DNA of 64,000 nt from Glutamicibacter creatinolyticus (GTDB taxonomy: Bacteria > Actinomycetota > Actinomycetes > Actinomycetales > Micrococcaceae), in contig NZ_CP034412.1 of the NCBI RefSeq assembly GCF_006094275.1, forward strand, positions 1,674,001 to 1,738,000. Reading direction: 5' to 3'. The notes beneath the pieces were generated by a model. It was not told the origin of the DNA. It ran no database searches and was given only the letters and a program-made list of their open reading frames with translations. How positions within the stretch are numbered: the first letter of the stretch is position 1; each line of letters starts with the position of its first letter. Shown in pieces: positions 1 through 3,956 of the stretch. A program made the position numbers and the translations under genes.

Positions 1-1245
<1,245 letters not shown>

Positions 1246-1296
1246 TTAGCTCGTCTCACAAACATGCTCTGAATTGTTGGTCTCTCCCAGACACGC

Positions 1297-1323
1297 AAAG
1301 ACCCCCGCAGCTGGCGTCGGGGG
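1297..1323 (-). terminator. Putative attenuator terminator in the leuS leader
   Basis: On the minus strand CCCCCG (1323-1318) and CGGGGG (1307-1302) form a GC-only stem around a 10-nt loop, followed by TCTTTG. It starts 7 nt after the stop codon of the short leader ORF and ends about 50 nt before leuS. The U-run is short, so intrinsic termination may be incomplete. A later alternative hairpin, GGTCT with AGACC (1303-1299 with 1283-1279), overlaps its tail. Confidence 0.5.
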
Positions 1324-1330
1324 CGGCACC

Positions 1331-1357
1331 TTAGAGTAGGTGAAACTGGGAATACAT
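1331..1357 (-). CDS. Leader peptide MYSQFHLL upstream of leuS (putative leucine attenuator)
   Basis: Eight-codon ORF: ATG at 1357, then Tyr-Ser-Gln-Phe-His-Leu-Leu and TAA at 1331. The last two sense codons are CTA and CTC; CTA is hardly used in the genes of this window, which favour CTG. A weak hairpin (CACCT with AGGTG, 1342-1338 with 1331-1327) covers exactly these Leu codons and the stop, and the GC-rich hairpin follows. This is the layout of ribosome-mediated attenuation: slow decoding of the Leu codons would change folding and allow read-through into leuS. The ATG lies 7 nt after a good -10 box, so the leader mRNA may be leaderless. I did not find a clear antiterminator pairing, so the mechanism is inferred. 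Confidence 0.5.
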   Translation of the reverse strand: MYSQFHLL

Positions 1358-1363
1358 ATCACG

Positions 1364-1369
1364 ATTCTA
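1364..1369 (-). promoter_or_regulatory. Putative -10 box of the leuS leader promoter
   Basis: TAGAAT on the minus strand, 6 nt before the leader-peptide ATG. No good -35 hexamer is visible 16-18 nt upstream (the bases there are GC-rich). The position predicts a transcript starting at or next to the ATG. Confidence 0.4.
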
Positions 1370-1464
1370 CCGTACCGGCACCGGGTGGTGCCGCATCGGT
1401 GACGGGGTCCGATCCGCGGCCGGAACAGGCGCGCCACGGCACGCGCTTTGGGGCCGGTTAAACT

Positions 1465-1500
1465 GCCGCGCACCCCAGGCGTGGGCCTGGGGTGCGCGGC
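1465..1500 (-). terminator. Terminator hairpin after glpK
   Basis: Perfect 16-bp inverted repeat (1465-1480 with 1485-1500) with a GTGG loop, 47 bp after the glpK stop. The tail on the minus strand is AGTTTAACC, so the U-run is weak, but stem length and position suit the 3' end of the glp operon. Confidence 0.75.
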
Positions 1501-1546
1501 GCGCGGTGCCCGCGCCGCGGTGTGGCGGTGCGGGCGCCTGACCGGC

Positions 1547-3070
1547 TTAGACGTGCCGGGTGTCCTCGTCGACCCAGTCGAAGGTGCGGGTGACCGCCTT
1601 CTTCCACAGGCGCAGCTTGCGTTCGCGCTCCTCGGGGTCCAGGTTCGGCTCCCAGCGCTTGTCCTCGGACCAGTTCGACTCCAGCTCGCCCAGGTCCTTC
1701 CAGTAGCCCACGGCCAGCCCGGCCGCGTAGGCGGCACCCAGGGCGGTGGTTTCGGTGACCTTCGGACGCACCACCGGCACCCCGAGGATGTCGGCCTGGA
1801 ACTGCATCAGGTTCTCGTTGGCGACCATCCCGCCATCGACCTTCAGCTCGGTCAGCGGGTCCGCGGCGTCGGCGTTCACCGCGTCCAGCACCTCACGGGT
1901 CTGGAAGGCGGTGGACTCCAGGGCTGCGCGGGCCAGGTGGTGCTTGTTCGCGTAGCGGGTCAGGCCCACGATCGCCCCACGGGCCTCGGAGCGCCAGTAG
2001 GGGGCGAACAGCCCGGAGAACGCCGGGACAATGTAGACCCCGCCGTTGTCCTCGACCTGGGCGGCCAGATCCTCGATCTCGGCGCTGGTGGCGATCATCC
2101 CGATGTTGTCGCGCAGCCACTGCACCAGCGAGCCGGCCACCGCGATGGAGCCTTCCAGCGCGTACACCGGCTCGGCGTCGCCCAGCTGGTAAGCCATGGT
2201 GGTCAGCAGCCCGTTGGAGGACTTGACGATCTCATTGCCGGTGTTGAAGATCAGGAAGCAGCCGGTGCCGTAGGTGTTCTTCGCCGAGCCGGGGGTGAAG
2301 GCGGCCTGCCCGAAGGTGGCAGCCTGCTGGTCGCCCAGGATGCCGGCCACCGGGGTTTCGCGCAGCAGCTGGTTGGTGTGCACGGTGCCGTAGACCTCGG
2401 AGGAGGAGCGGATCTCGGGCAGCATCGAGGCCGGGACCCCGAAGTCGGCAAGGATCTGCTCATCCCAGGCGCGGGTGCGCAGGTCCATGAACAGGGTGCG
2501 TGAGGCGTTGGTGACGTCGGTGACGTGCACGCCGCCGTCGGTGCCGCCGGTCAGGTTCCACAGCACCCAGGTGTCGGTGGTGCCAAAGAGCAGGTCCCCA
2601 GCCTCGGCGCGCTGGCGGGCGTTGTCCACGTTGTCCAGGATCCACTTGATCTTGGTGCCGGCGAAGTAGGTGGCCAGGGGCAGGCCGACCTTGTCCTTGT
2701 AGCGCTCCACTCCCCCGTCGGCGGCCAGGTCGTCGACGATCTGCTGGGTGCGGGTGTCCTGCCAGACGATCGCGTTGTACACCGGCTCACCGGTGTTCTT
2801 GTCCCACACCACGGTGGTTTCACGCTGGTTGGTGATGCCCACCGCCTCGATGTCGTGGCGGGTCAGGTTCGCCTTGGACAGGGCCTGGCCGATCACTTCG
2901 CGCACGTTGTTCCAGATTTCGGTGGCGTCGTGCTCCACCCATCCGGCCTGCGGGAAGATCTGCTCGTGTTCCAGCTGGCCCACGGAGATGACCTCACCGG
3001 CGTGGTTGAACACGATCGCCCGGGAACTGGTGGTTCCCTGGTCAATGGCGATGACGTACTTCGAGCTCAT
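1547..3070 (-). CDS. glpK: Glycerol kinase
   Basis: FGGY-family kinase that phosphorylates glycerol to glycerol 3-phosphate with ATP in the cytoplasm. The 507 residues match the usual length of about 500. The N-terminus carries the phosphate-binding motif DQGTTSSRA at residues 10-18, and the C-terminal half has the FGGY ATP-site segment [18 protein letters not shown] near residue 410. Start ATG 3070 is preceded by AAGAGAG. It is the last gene of glpD-glpF-glpK, separated from glpF by about 150 bp holding a GC-rich hairpin, and followed by a 16-bp terminator stem. The context gives a full glycerol uptake and oxidation route. Confidence 0.97.
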
Positions 3071-3117
3071 GGTTCACTCTCTTTTCGCTAAAAAAACTAC
3101 GTTGTTCTTTCCTCGAT

Positions 3118-3147
3118 GCCCGGCCCCCTCGGGTGAGGGGGCCGGGC
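3118..3147 (-). terminator. GC-rich hairpin between glpF and glpK
   Basis: Perfect 12-bp inverted repeat (3118-3129 with 3136-3147), loop CGGGTG. On the minus strand about 20 nt later there is a run of seven T (3091-3097), just before the glpK ribosome binding site. It could be a partial terminator or an mRNA-processing or stability element that sets different levels of glpK relative to glpD and glpF. The distance between stem and T-run is longer than in a classical terminator. Confidence 0.45.
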
Positions 3148-3224
3148 AGTGGGGTCACGGCCGCGGCCGGTGCGGGCACCTGCCTGAGACCAGCTTGTGC
3201 GATCCCCGCTAATAGCTCAAGGTT

Positions 3225-3956
3225 CTAGAACAGCGCGGCGGCACCAAGACCGCCCAGGACACCGCCGATGAGCGGTCCGGCAACCGGGACCCAGGAGTAG
3301 GCCCAGTCCGATGATCCCTTGCCCGGGATCGGCAGCAGGGCGTGCGCCAGGCGCGGACCGAGGTCACGCGCCGGGTTGATCGCGTACCCGGTGGGTCCGC
3401 CCAGCGAGGCGCCGATGGCGACCACGATCAGCGCGACGGCCAGCGGGCCCAACCCGTGGGGGGTCTTGCCGAAGCCGTTGATCACGAACACCAGCACGAA
3501 GGTGGCGATGATCTCGGTGACCATGTTCCAGGGGTAGGAGCGGATGGCCCCTCCGGTGGCGAAGACGCCCAGCTTGCTGCCGCCGTCGATGGGTTCATCG
3601 AAGTGCTTCTTGTAGGCCAGCCAGGTGCCCACGGCGCCGAGCACGGCACCGATCATCTGGGCGGCGAAGTACAGCAGCATGTTCGCCACGGTCTTGTCCA
3701 CGCCCGGTGCCAGCTCGGTGGCATCGGCGTTGACCATCAAACCGACGGTGACCGCCGGGTTCAGGTGGGCGCCGGAAGCGGCGGCCACCCAGACACCGGC
3801 GAAGACCGCCATTCCCCAACCGAAACAGATCGTCAGCCAGCCCGCGGCGTGGCCCAACGTCCCCTTCAGATTCACATTGGCCACCACGCCGGTGCCCAAT
3901 AGCAGCAGAATGAATGTGCCGGTGAGTTCGGCAAGAAATATATTCGGAGTCAACAC
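3225..3956 (-). CDS. glpF: Glycerol uptake facilitator (aquaglyceroporin)
   Basis: MIP-family channel with six membrane helices that lets glycerol diffuse across the cytoplasmic membrane. Both NPA boxes are present (NPA at about residues 66-68 and 194-196), and the second is followed by Arg-Asp (INPARDLGPR), the Asp being typical of glycerol facilitators rather than pure aquaporins. I place the start at GTG 3956 (243 aa), with a TTG at 3953 as alternative; AGGAAGG at 3966-3960 is the ribosome binding site and suits the TTG slightly better (6-nt spacing). The longer frame from 4001 has no such site and adds non-conserved residues. It follows glpD by 48 bp. Confidence 0.93.
   Translation of the reverse strand: MLTPNIFLAELTGTFILLLLGTGVVANVNLKGTLGHAAGWLTICFGWGMAVFAGVWVAAASGAHLNPAVTVGLMVNADATELAPGVDKTVANMLLYFAAQMIGAVLGAVGTWLAYKKHFDEPIDGGSKLGVFATGGAIRSYPWNMVTEIIATFVLVFVINGFGKTPHGLGPLAVALIVVAIGASLGGPTGYAINPARDLGPRLAHALLPIPGKGSSDWAYSWVPVAGPLIGGVLGGLGAAALF

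Follow-up and report, generated by a model that had tools for sequence, protein, structure and literature searches.

Three described systems lie closest to the locus studied here. For leuS of S. avermitilis and S. coelicolor, Seliverstov et al. (2005) predicted attenuators of the classical type (PMC1262725), and the 2021 RNA-seq reannotation of S. lividans (PMC8079986) reported leuL2 at leuS as leaderless, with a hairpin and then a U stretch behind it. At ilvBNC of C. glutamicum, a GCC is common to the terminator and antiterminator hairpins, for which fast switching has been proposed (PMC11857589). With a prediction from 2005 and a report from 2021, a leader-peptide attenuator at an actinobacterial leuS is already in print, and the suggestion of the first, sequence-only reading that no such case was known to it does not make the locus a new one. 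A search of the open-licence literature found no paper on the leuS leader in Arthrobacter, Glutamicibacter or their relatives.

The window analysed here is a 64-kb stretch of DNA, and all coordinates are window positions. The element lies on the minus strand, downstream of glpK, which is on the same strand as leuS. Its features are given below together with the match of R1, a covariance model constructed from the leaders of 29 relatives, none of them Glutamicibacter.

1364..1369, minus strand: -10 promoter box TAGAAT (read from the sequence), with the leader ATG 6 nt downstream; box and spacing identical in 18 of 18 genus members
1331..1357, minus strand: leader ORF MYSQFHLL (ATG-TAT-TCC-CAG-TTT-CAC-CTA-CTC-TAA), eight codons plus TAA
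1357-1355, minus strand: leader ATG
1337..1339, minus strand: rare Leu codon CTA, conserved, the proposed control codon; CTA in 17 of 18 genus members and 1.6% of window Leu codons
1334..1336, minus strand: second Leu codon CTC, window-specific; Val, Ala or Gly there in the 16 other members whose ORF is complete
1327..1342, minus strand: small hairpin CACCU/AGGUG of the MFE structure, whose loop holds the Leu codons; not conserved
1302..1323, minus strand: predicted terminator stem-loop CCCCCG...CGGGGG, from the sequence and the R1 match; the equivalent helix is 99.3% paired over 96 distinct relatives
1294..1301, minus strand: short U-rich tail of the predicted terminator, TCTTTGCG; CTTTTG in 16 of 18 genus members
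1289..1357, minus strand: whole element according to R1, 22.9 bits, E 7.7e-4; sole window match up to E 10
1..1245, minus strand: leuS, N-terminal 415 codons, continuing past the window edge; TIGR00396, E 6.9e-161

The coordinates and description that the sequence-only reading gave for the -10 box, the MYSQFHLL ORF, the GC hairpin with TCTTT and leuS proved correct. The gene starts with GTG at 1245-1243 on the minus strand, only 112 nt from the leader ATG, and its partial protein scores 537.2 bits against TIGR00396 (leuS_bact), just below the cut-off of 548.4 that applies to the whole protein. In the predicted terminator, CCCCCG at 1323-1318 pairs with CGGGGG at 1307-1302 around the loop ACGCCAGCTG, forming a 6-bp GC stem that is followed by TCTTT to position 1297.

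We scanned both strands of the 64 kb for TAnnnT, 5-7 nt, ATG or GTG and an ORF of 6-12 codons, counting the stop, in which two or more of the last three sense codons encode Leu. The leuS leader was the only matching site in the whole window on either strand. Its CTA codon had been called rare, and rightly so: CTA makes up 31 of the 1933 Leu codons (1.6%) in the 38 mechanical long ORFs of the window. R1, built without Glutamicibacter, also gave one window match up to E 10, at 1357-1289. In the whole genome of the window the leuS leader was again the top R1 match, yet a weak one (E 0.04); three other matches at 15.1-16.3 bits, read by eye together with the long ORFs, showed no such leader. Fold stability of the window leader was not above that of shuffled sequences (z 0.11), and generic promoter and terminator scans reported neither the -10 box nor the terminator of the leader.

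T-boxes are common at synthetase genes elsewhere, and control of leuS by a T-box or another riboswitch was considered. Over positions 1-3500 there was no Rfam match up to E 5 save a sub-threshold miRNA match at 2120-2185, and the 112 nt from leader ATG to leuS is a short span for such an element. With no Rfam match at the site, we rejected a T-box or other Rfam family at the leuS leader and regard this form of control as extremely improbable.

Within the genus, we aligned the regions upstream of leuS from 18 Glutamicibacter genomes, including that of the window. TAGAAT, the 6-nt gap and the ATG are kept in all 18, a layout that would suit leaderless transcription, which is reported for the S. 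lividans homologue (PMC8079986). In 17 of the 18, window included, the ORF reads M, five variable residues, Leu encoded by CTA, one variable residue and stop, and none of these 17 has swapped CTA for a synonymous codon. The genus alignment upholds both the short ORF and its CTA. It does not uphold the idea that two Leu codons form the sensor, as only CTA is conserved in the genus; the next codon encodes Val, Ala or Gly in 16 members and Leu in the window alone. In the remaining member, Glutamicibacter sp. PS (G004; loci L007 and L102), the fifth codon is a TGA and the in-frame Leu codons come after it; a hairpin and the terminator are still there.

Downstream of the stop codon, 16 of the 18 members have the hairpin ACGGCC/GGCCGU or a close variant, followed by CCCCC...GGGGG-CTTTT; the count for this post-stop hairpin is 17 if that of G004 is included. 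The window is without it. Its leader stop is separated from the terminator stem by the seven bases GGTGCCG, against 18 bases in locus L003, a difference of 11. The competing hairpin that had been proposed around the Leu codons does form in the window MFE structure, but it is found in the window only: none of the 17 other members forms CACCU/AGGUG, and 16 of them have the post-stop hairpin instead.

These differences raise the possibility that the window copy is a decaying relic of a leuS attenuator, which has lost the switch hairpin and now consists of a promoter and a partial terminator only, the ORF of G004 having lost its Leu codons. The absent hairpin with its 11 missing bases, the TGA that cuts the G004 ORF and the tree, which places the window and G004 alike outside a 16-genome clade with every part intact (support 98/94), are consistent with decay. 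Against it stand the parts that the window retains, namely the -10 box, the start codon, the rare CTA codon, the stop codon and the terminator, together with a second Leu codon. We put this reading somewhat below an even chance.

We then determined how widespread the element is outside the genus. In 56 of 80 relatives, five of the 56 being Glutamicibacter, a regular expression picked up a qualifying short Leu ORF immediately behind a -10-like box; it also found such a leader in 14 of 40 loci from the same class. Leaders outside Glutamicibacter typically carry two or three Leu codons, one further codon and then TAG, as in MRAILLLS and MHTFLLLS. At E 0.01, R1 matched 102 of 194 Micrococcaceae genomes, some of which had supplied rows of the model, with one match each and in 18 of 32 genera. 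The other 92 family genomes gave no match at this threshold, among them all 12 Glutamicibacter genomes in the set. All 101 family matches with a known leuS position precede leuS and share its strand; their distances to the start of the leuS match range over 57-261 nt, with a median of 109. The 102nd (L261) likewise stands in front of leuS. R1 further matched 78 of 197 genomes of the class at E 0.01 and 13 of 149 genomes of the phylum at E 0.001.

In Glutamicibacter, R1 scored 22.9 bits for the window, 15.3-21.1 bits for five loci and 7.4 bits for Glutamicibacter sp. PS. With scores this low, the case for homology in the genus draws on position and layout no less than on score. In the loci examined from Kocuria, Rothia, Nesterenkonia, Yaniella, Auritidibacter and Acaricomes the element did not turn up, even when R1 was run without filters; that set held 32 loci, including L150 with only 75 nt of upstream sequence, and its best full-length match was the one of 7.4 bits in Glutamicibacter sp. 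PS.

Several genomes of the same class (families f6, f21, f31 and others) matched the window LeuS weakly, at roughly 41-46% identity over part of the N-terminus, and the genes concerned are open frames of about 970-1210 codons. Three f21 loci with this weakly matching LeuS type (L207-L209) carry the same leader, which seems to be common to two LeuS types. Their leader peptide, MRAVRLLLSEPR followed by a stop, is identical to the S. lividans leuL2 given in PMC8079986, and R1 scores for these three loci are 51.5-55 bits.

Two helices, the post-stop hairpin and the terminator, covary in the relatives. In an unfitted MAFFT alignment of 29 sequences, 88.0% of their cells were paired (81.3 +/- 0.8 in shuffled alignments), with 34 double-change cells (11.8 +/- 3.0 shuffled); when pairs showing any double change were counted instead, the 6 obtained did not exceed the shuffled alignments (4.8 +/- 0.9; 111 of 500). 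Fitting 96 distinct rows to R1 gave 93.5% paired cells (82.3 +/- 0.5 shuffled) and 175 double-change cells (48.0 +/- 6.8 shuffled), and sliding the partner by 1-3 columns lowered pairing to 36-55%. By corrected mutual information, the top five column pairs belong to the post-stop hairpin, and a terminator pair comes after them, amid scattered column pairs that either do not pair or do not stack; over all column pairs this measure revealed no further stacked helix with covariation beyond these two. RNAalifold on its own lent no support from covariation (covariation term 0.04), because MAFFT shifts the 3' arm in some rows. Covariation in both hairpins had been proposed as a check by the sequence-only reading; it is seen in relatives for the terminator and for the post-stop hairpin, while the small hairpin at the Leu codons is not conserved. 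The leucine-codon leader ORF before leuS is a real, conserved element on the minus strand, and its conservation across the genus, the family matches of the model and the covariation together make it a leader-peptide element at leuS. As a side observation, the sequence after the U tract in the relatives' loci, UUUUGUGUGUC and then often CGG or UGG, shows far more conservation than a terminator requires.

On sequence criteria we assign the site to the actinobacterial leuS leader-peptide (leuL2-type) family, an assignment with which its homology under R1 agrees. Leu codons stand near the ORF stop upstream of leuS on the same strand, and a predicted terminator, hairpin and U-rich tail, separates the leader from leuS. 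A post-stop hairpin 5' of the terminator is absent from the window; since the available text of PMC8079986 names one hairpin and a U stretch, we treat the second hairpin as common in the family and not as defining it.

We modelled the stalled ribosome as covering the RNA to about 15 nt past the first base of the P-site codon. With this footprint imposed on the folding of 95 relatives, the 5' arm of the post-stop hairpin was paired with a mean probability of 0.96 when no ribosome was present, 0.84 with the ribosome at the first Leu codon of the run, 0.13 with it at the last Leu codon and 0.00 with it at the stop. Terminator probability averaged 0.98-0.99 in every ribosome position. In these models, ribosome position would set the post-stop hairpin of the relatives, and in the direction expected if the hairpin stood for 'leucine short, keep transcribing'. 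No mutually exclusive antiterminator was found at equilibrium, in the relatives or in the window, by MFE, ribosome-constrained partition functions or column-pair covariation, and the locus accordingly differs at equilibrium from a classical trp-type attenuator, in which antiterminator and terminator exclude each other. The claim of a leucine-codon attenuator at leuS is partly supported: Glutamicibacter and most of the Arthrobacter-like relatives that we looked at keep the leader, and its supposed antiterminator was not recovered. As the ribosome toggles the post-stop hairpin and leaves the terminator as it is, antitermination is an inference, and with a terminator stable in all ribosome states and no third helix, equilibrium folding does not explain that step. 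Some MFE structures paired the freed 3' arm of the post-stop hairpin with UUUUGUGUGUC; we rejected this pairing, which consists mostly of G-U pairs and is not kept where the tail is UUUUUCAUG (L171, L174 and L175).

We consider it likely that the site belongs to a leuL2-type family with a leaderless leader, a terminator before leuS, a ribosome-sensitive post-stop hairpin and, by analogy, leucine-dependent readthrough. Transcription would start at or adjoining the leader ATG, and the eight codons would be translated as a leaderless message. A terminator, predicted from sequence and covariation, would stand ahead of leuS. In the family, the 5' arm of the second hairpin starts directly after the stop codon or inside the last codons, so placed that in constrained folding a ribosome at the first Leu codon of the run leaves the arm free and one at the stop covers it. 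Scarce charged tRNA-Leu may then favour the post-stop hairpin and readthrough into leuS, and ample leucine may lead to termination before leuS, both by analogy with studied actinobacterial attenuators. The window copy behaves differently in the models, where the terminator stays free while a ribosome sits at CTA and is weakened when one stands at the stop codon. This is the reverse of what attenuation needs, which puts the copy off-scheme and possibly under poor regulation. Since it is also missing the post-stop hairpin, it may be weakly regulated or decaying, and its response to leucine is uncertain.

One way in which the family might work is attenuation with no classical antiterminator at all, the ribosome acting kinetically on the terminator through the adjacent hairpin, through pausing of RNA polymerase or through a small overlap of the kind put forward for C. 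glutamicum ilvBNC. Only two helices covary, and in alignment A1 they lie a few nt apart, which suits such a mechanism, as do the terminator's stability in all ribosome states and the ilvBNC precedent itself (PMC11857589). That paper also provides the counterpoint: the ilvBNC hairpins share a GCC, which was not seen in the leuS leaders. We see this as a real possibility, to which we would give a little less than half the weight.

To investigate other genes preceded by the element, we fetched 40 loci of R1 matches, mostly from the class and phylum, that were second matches in a genome or lay at genes not yet identified. The 18 that were scanned all belong to leucine or branched-chain genes: six leuS, five ilvB (acetolactate synthase), five citramalate synthase and two leuA. 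By eye, the leader codons fit the target, as in ILVVSEHVV at ilvB (L226). Citramalate synthase (TIGR00977) follows leaders of the same layout, read in the coding orientation within about the first 160 nt, in L224, L229, L236, L254 and L265; those read carry Ile/Val codons, with MQHRHIVIP in L229 (IVIP) and VQSALIIT in L224 (IIT). The leuA leaders that the leuS-trained model matched are MSQNLLLT in L249 (LLLT) and VNVSRTLLLLT in L251 (LLLLT). In the open-licence literature searched, we found no report of leader-peptide or attenuator control at citramalate synthase (cimA).

This fit between codons and targets bears on whether leucine is sensed at all. The short ORF could instead be a conserved uORF that fixes the basal level of expression, or belong to a control site that is Rho-dependent or translational. 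The codons ahead of the Leu codons vary, and PMC1262725 cites early mutational work on S. coelicolor ilvB and leuA that does not suit classical attenuation. Against this, what is conserved in the ORF is precisely the Leu codons adjoining the stop, and the model also finds leaders at ilvB, leuA and citramalate synthase whose codons are for the amino acids that fit each gene. We judge a leader that does not sense leucine improbable. A broader proposal is that a single compact two-hairpin leader at leuS, leuA, ilvB and citramalate synthase across Actinobacteria attenuates with no classical antiterminator, the ribosome opening or closing the terminator-adjacent hairpin with a kinetic effect on RNA polymerase. 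We offer it as speculative and rather unlikely; if true, citramalate synthase would be a target for which we found no report of such control.

The leucine-codon leader at leuS extends a form of control described in Streptomyces to 18 of the 32 genera sampled in the family, besides the window's own genus, and R1 provides a means of finding the element, as well as related leaders in front of further branched-chain amino acid genes. Its conserved anatomy, a hairpin predicted to be ribosome-sensitive and a terminator with no visible antiterminator, makes the switching step directly testable. Glutamicibacter, with one conserved rare CUA codon as the putative sensor and two species beyond the main clade whose switches are altered, would be a natural series for studying switch decay.

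Compared with the known systems, the locus shares with S. lividans leuL2 (PMC8079986) a short ORF, leaderless there and presumably here, with a Leu run (MRAVRLLLSEPR and a stop in leuL2) before leuS, a hairpin and a U stretch. The window leader differs in its eight codons, with CTA-CTC directly before the stop, in being without a post-stop hairpin and in its weak U tract. The leuS candidates of S. coelicolor and S. avermitilis (PMC1262725) likewise have a leader ORF with Leu codons and a terminator upstream of leuS; they are marked with an antiterminator as well as a terminator, whereas the relatives examined here yielded no mutually exclusive antiterminator. The leuS leader is thus not new in kind; it broadens the known range, and the copy in the window's genome is partly altered. 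C. glutamicum ilvBNC (PMC11857589) resembles the leuS leader in a near-leaderless leader peptide, as predicted here too, and a hairpin directly before a GCCC/GGGC terminator, and differs from it as a BCAA operon with three hairpins, whose terminator and antiterminator share GCC. Among the systems compared, it is the nearest studied precedent.
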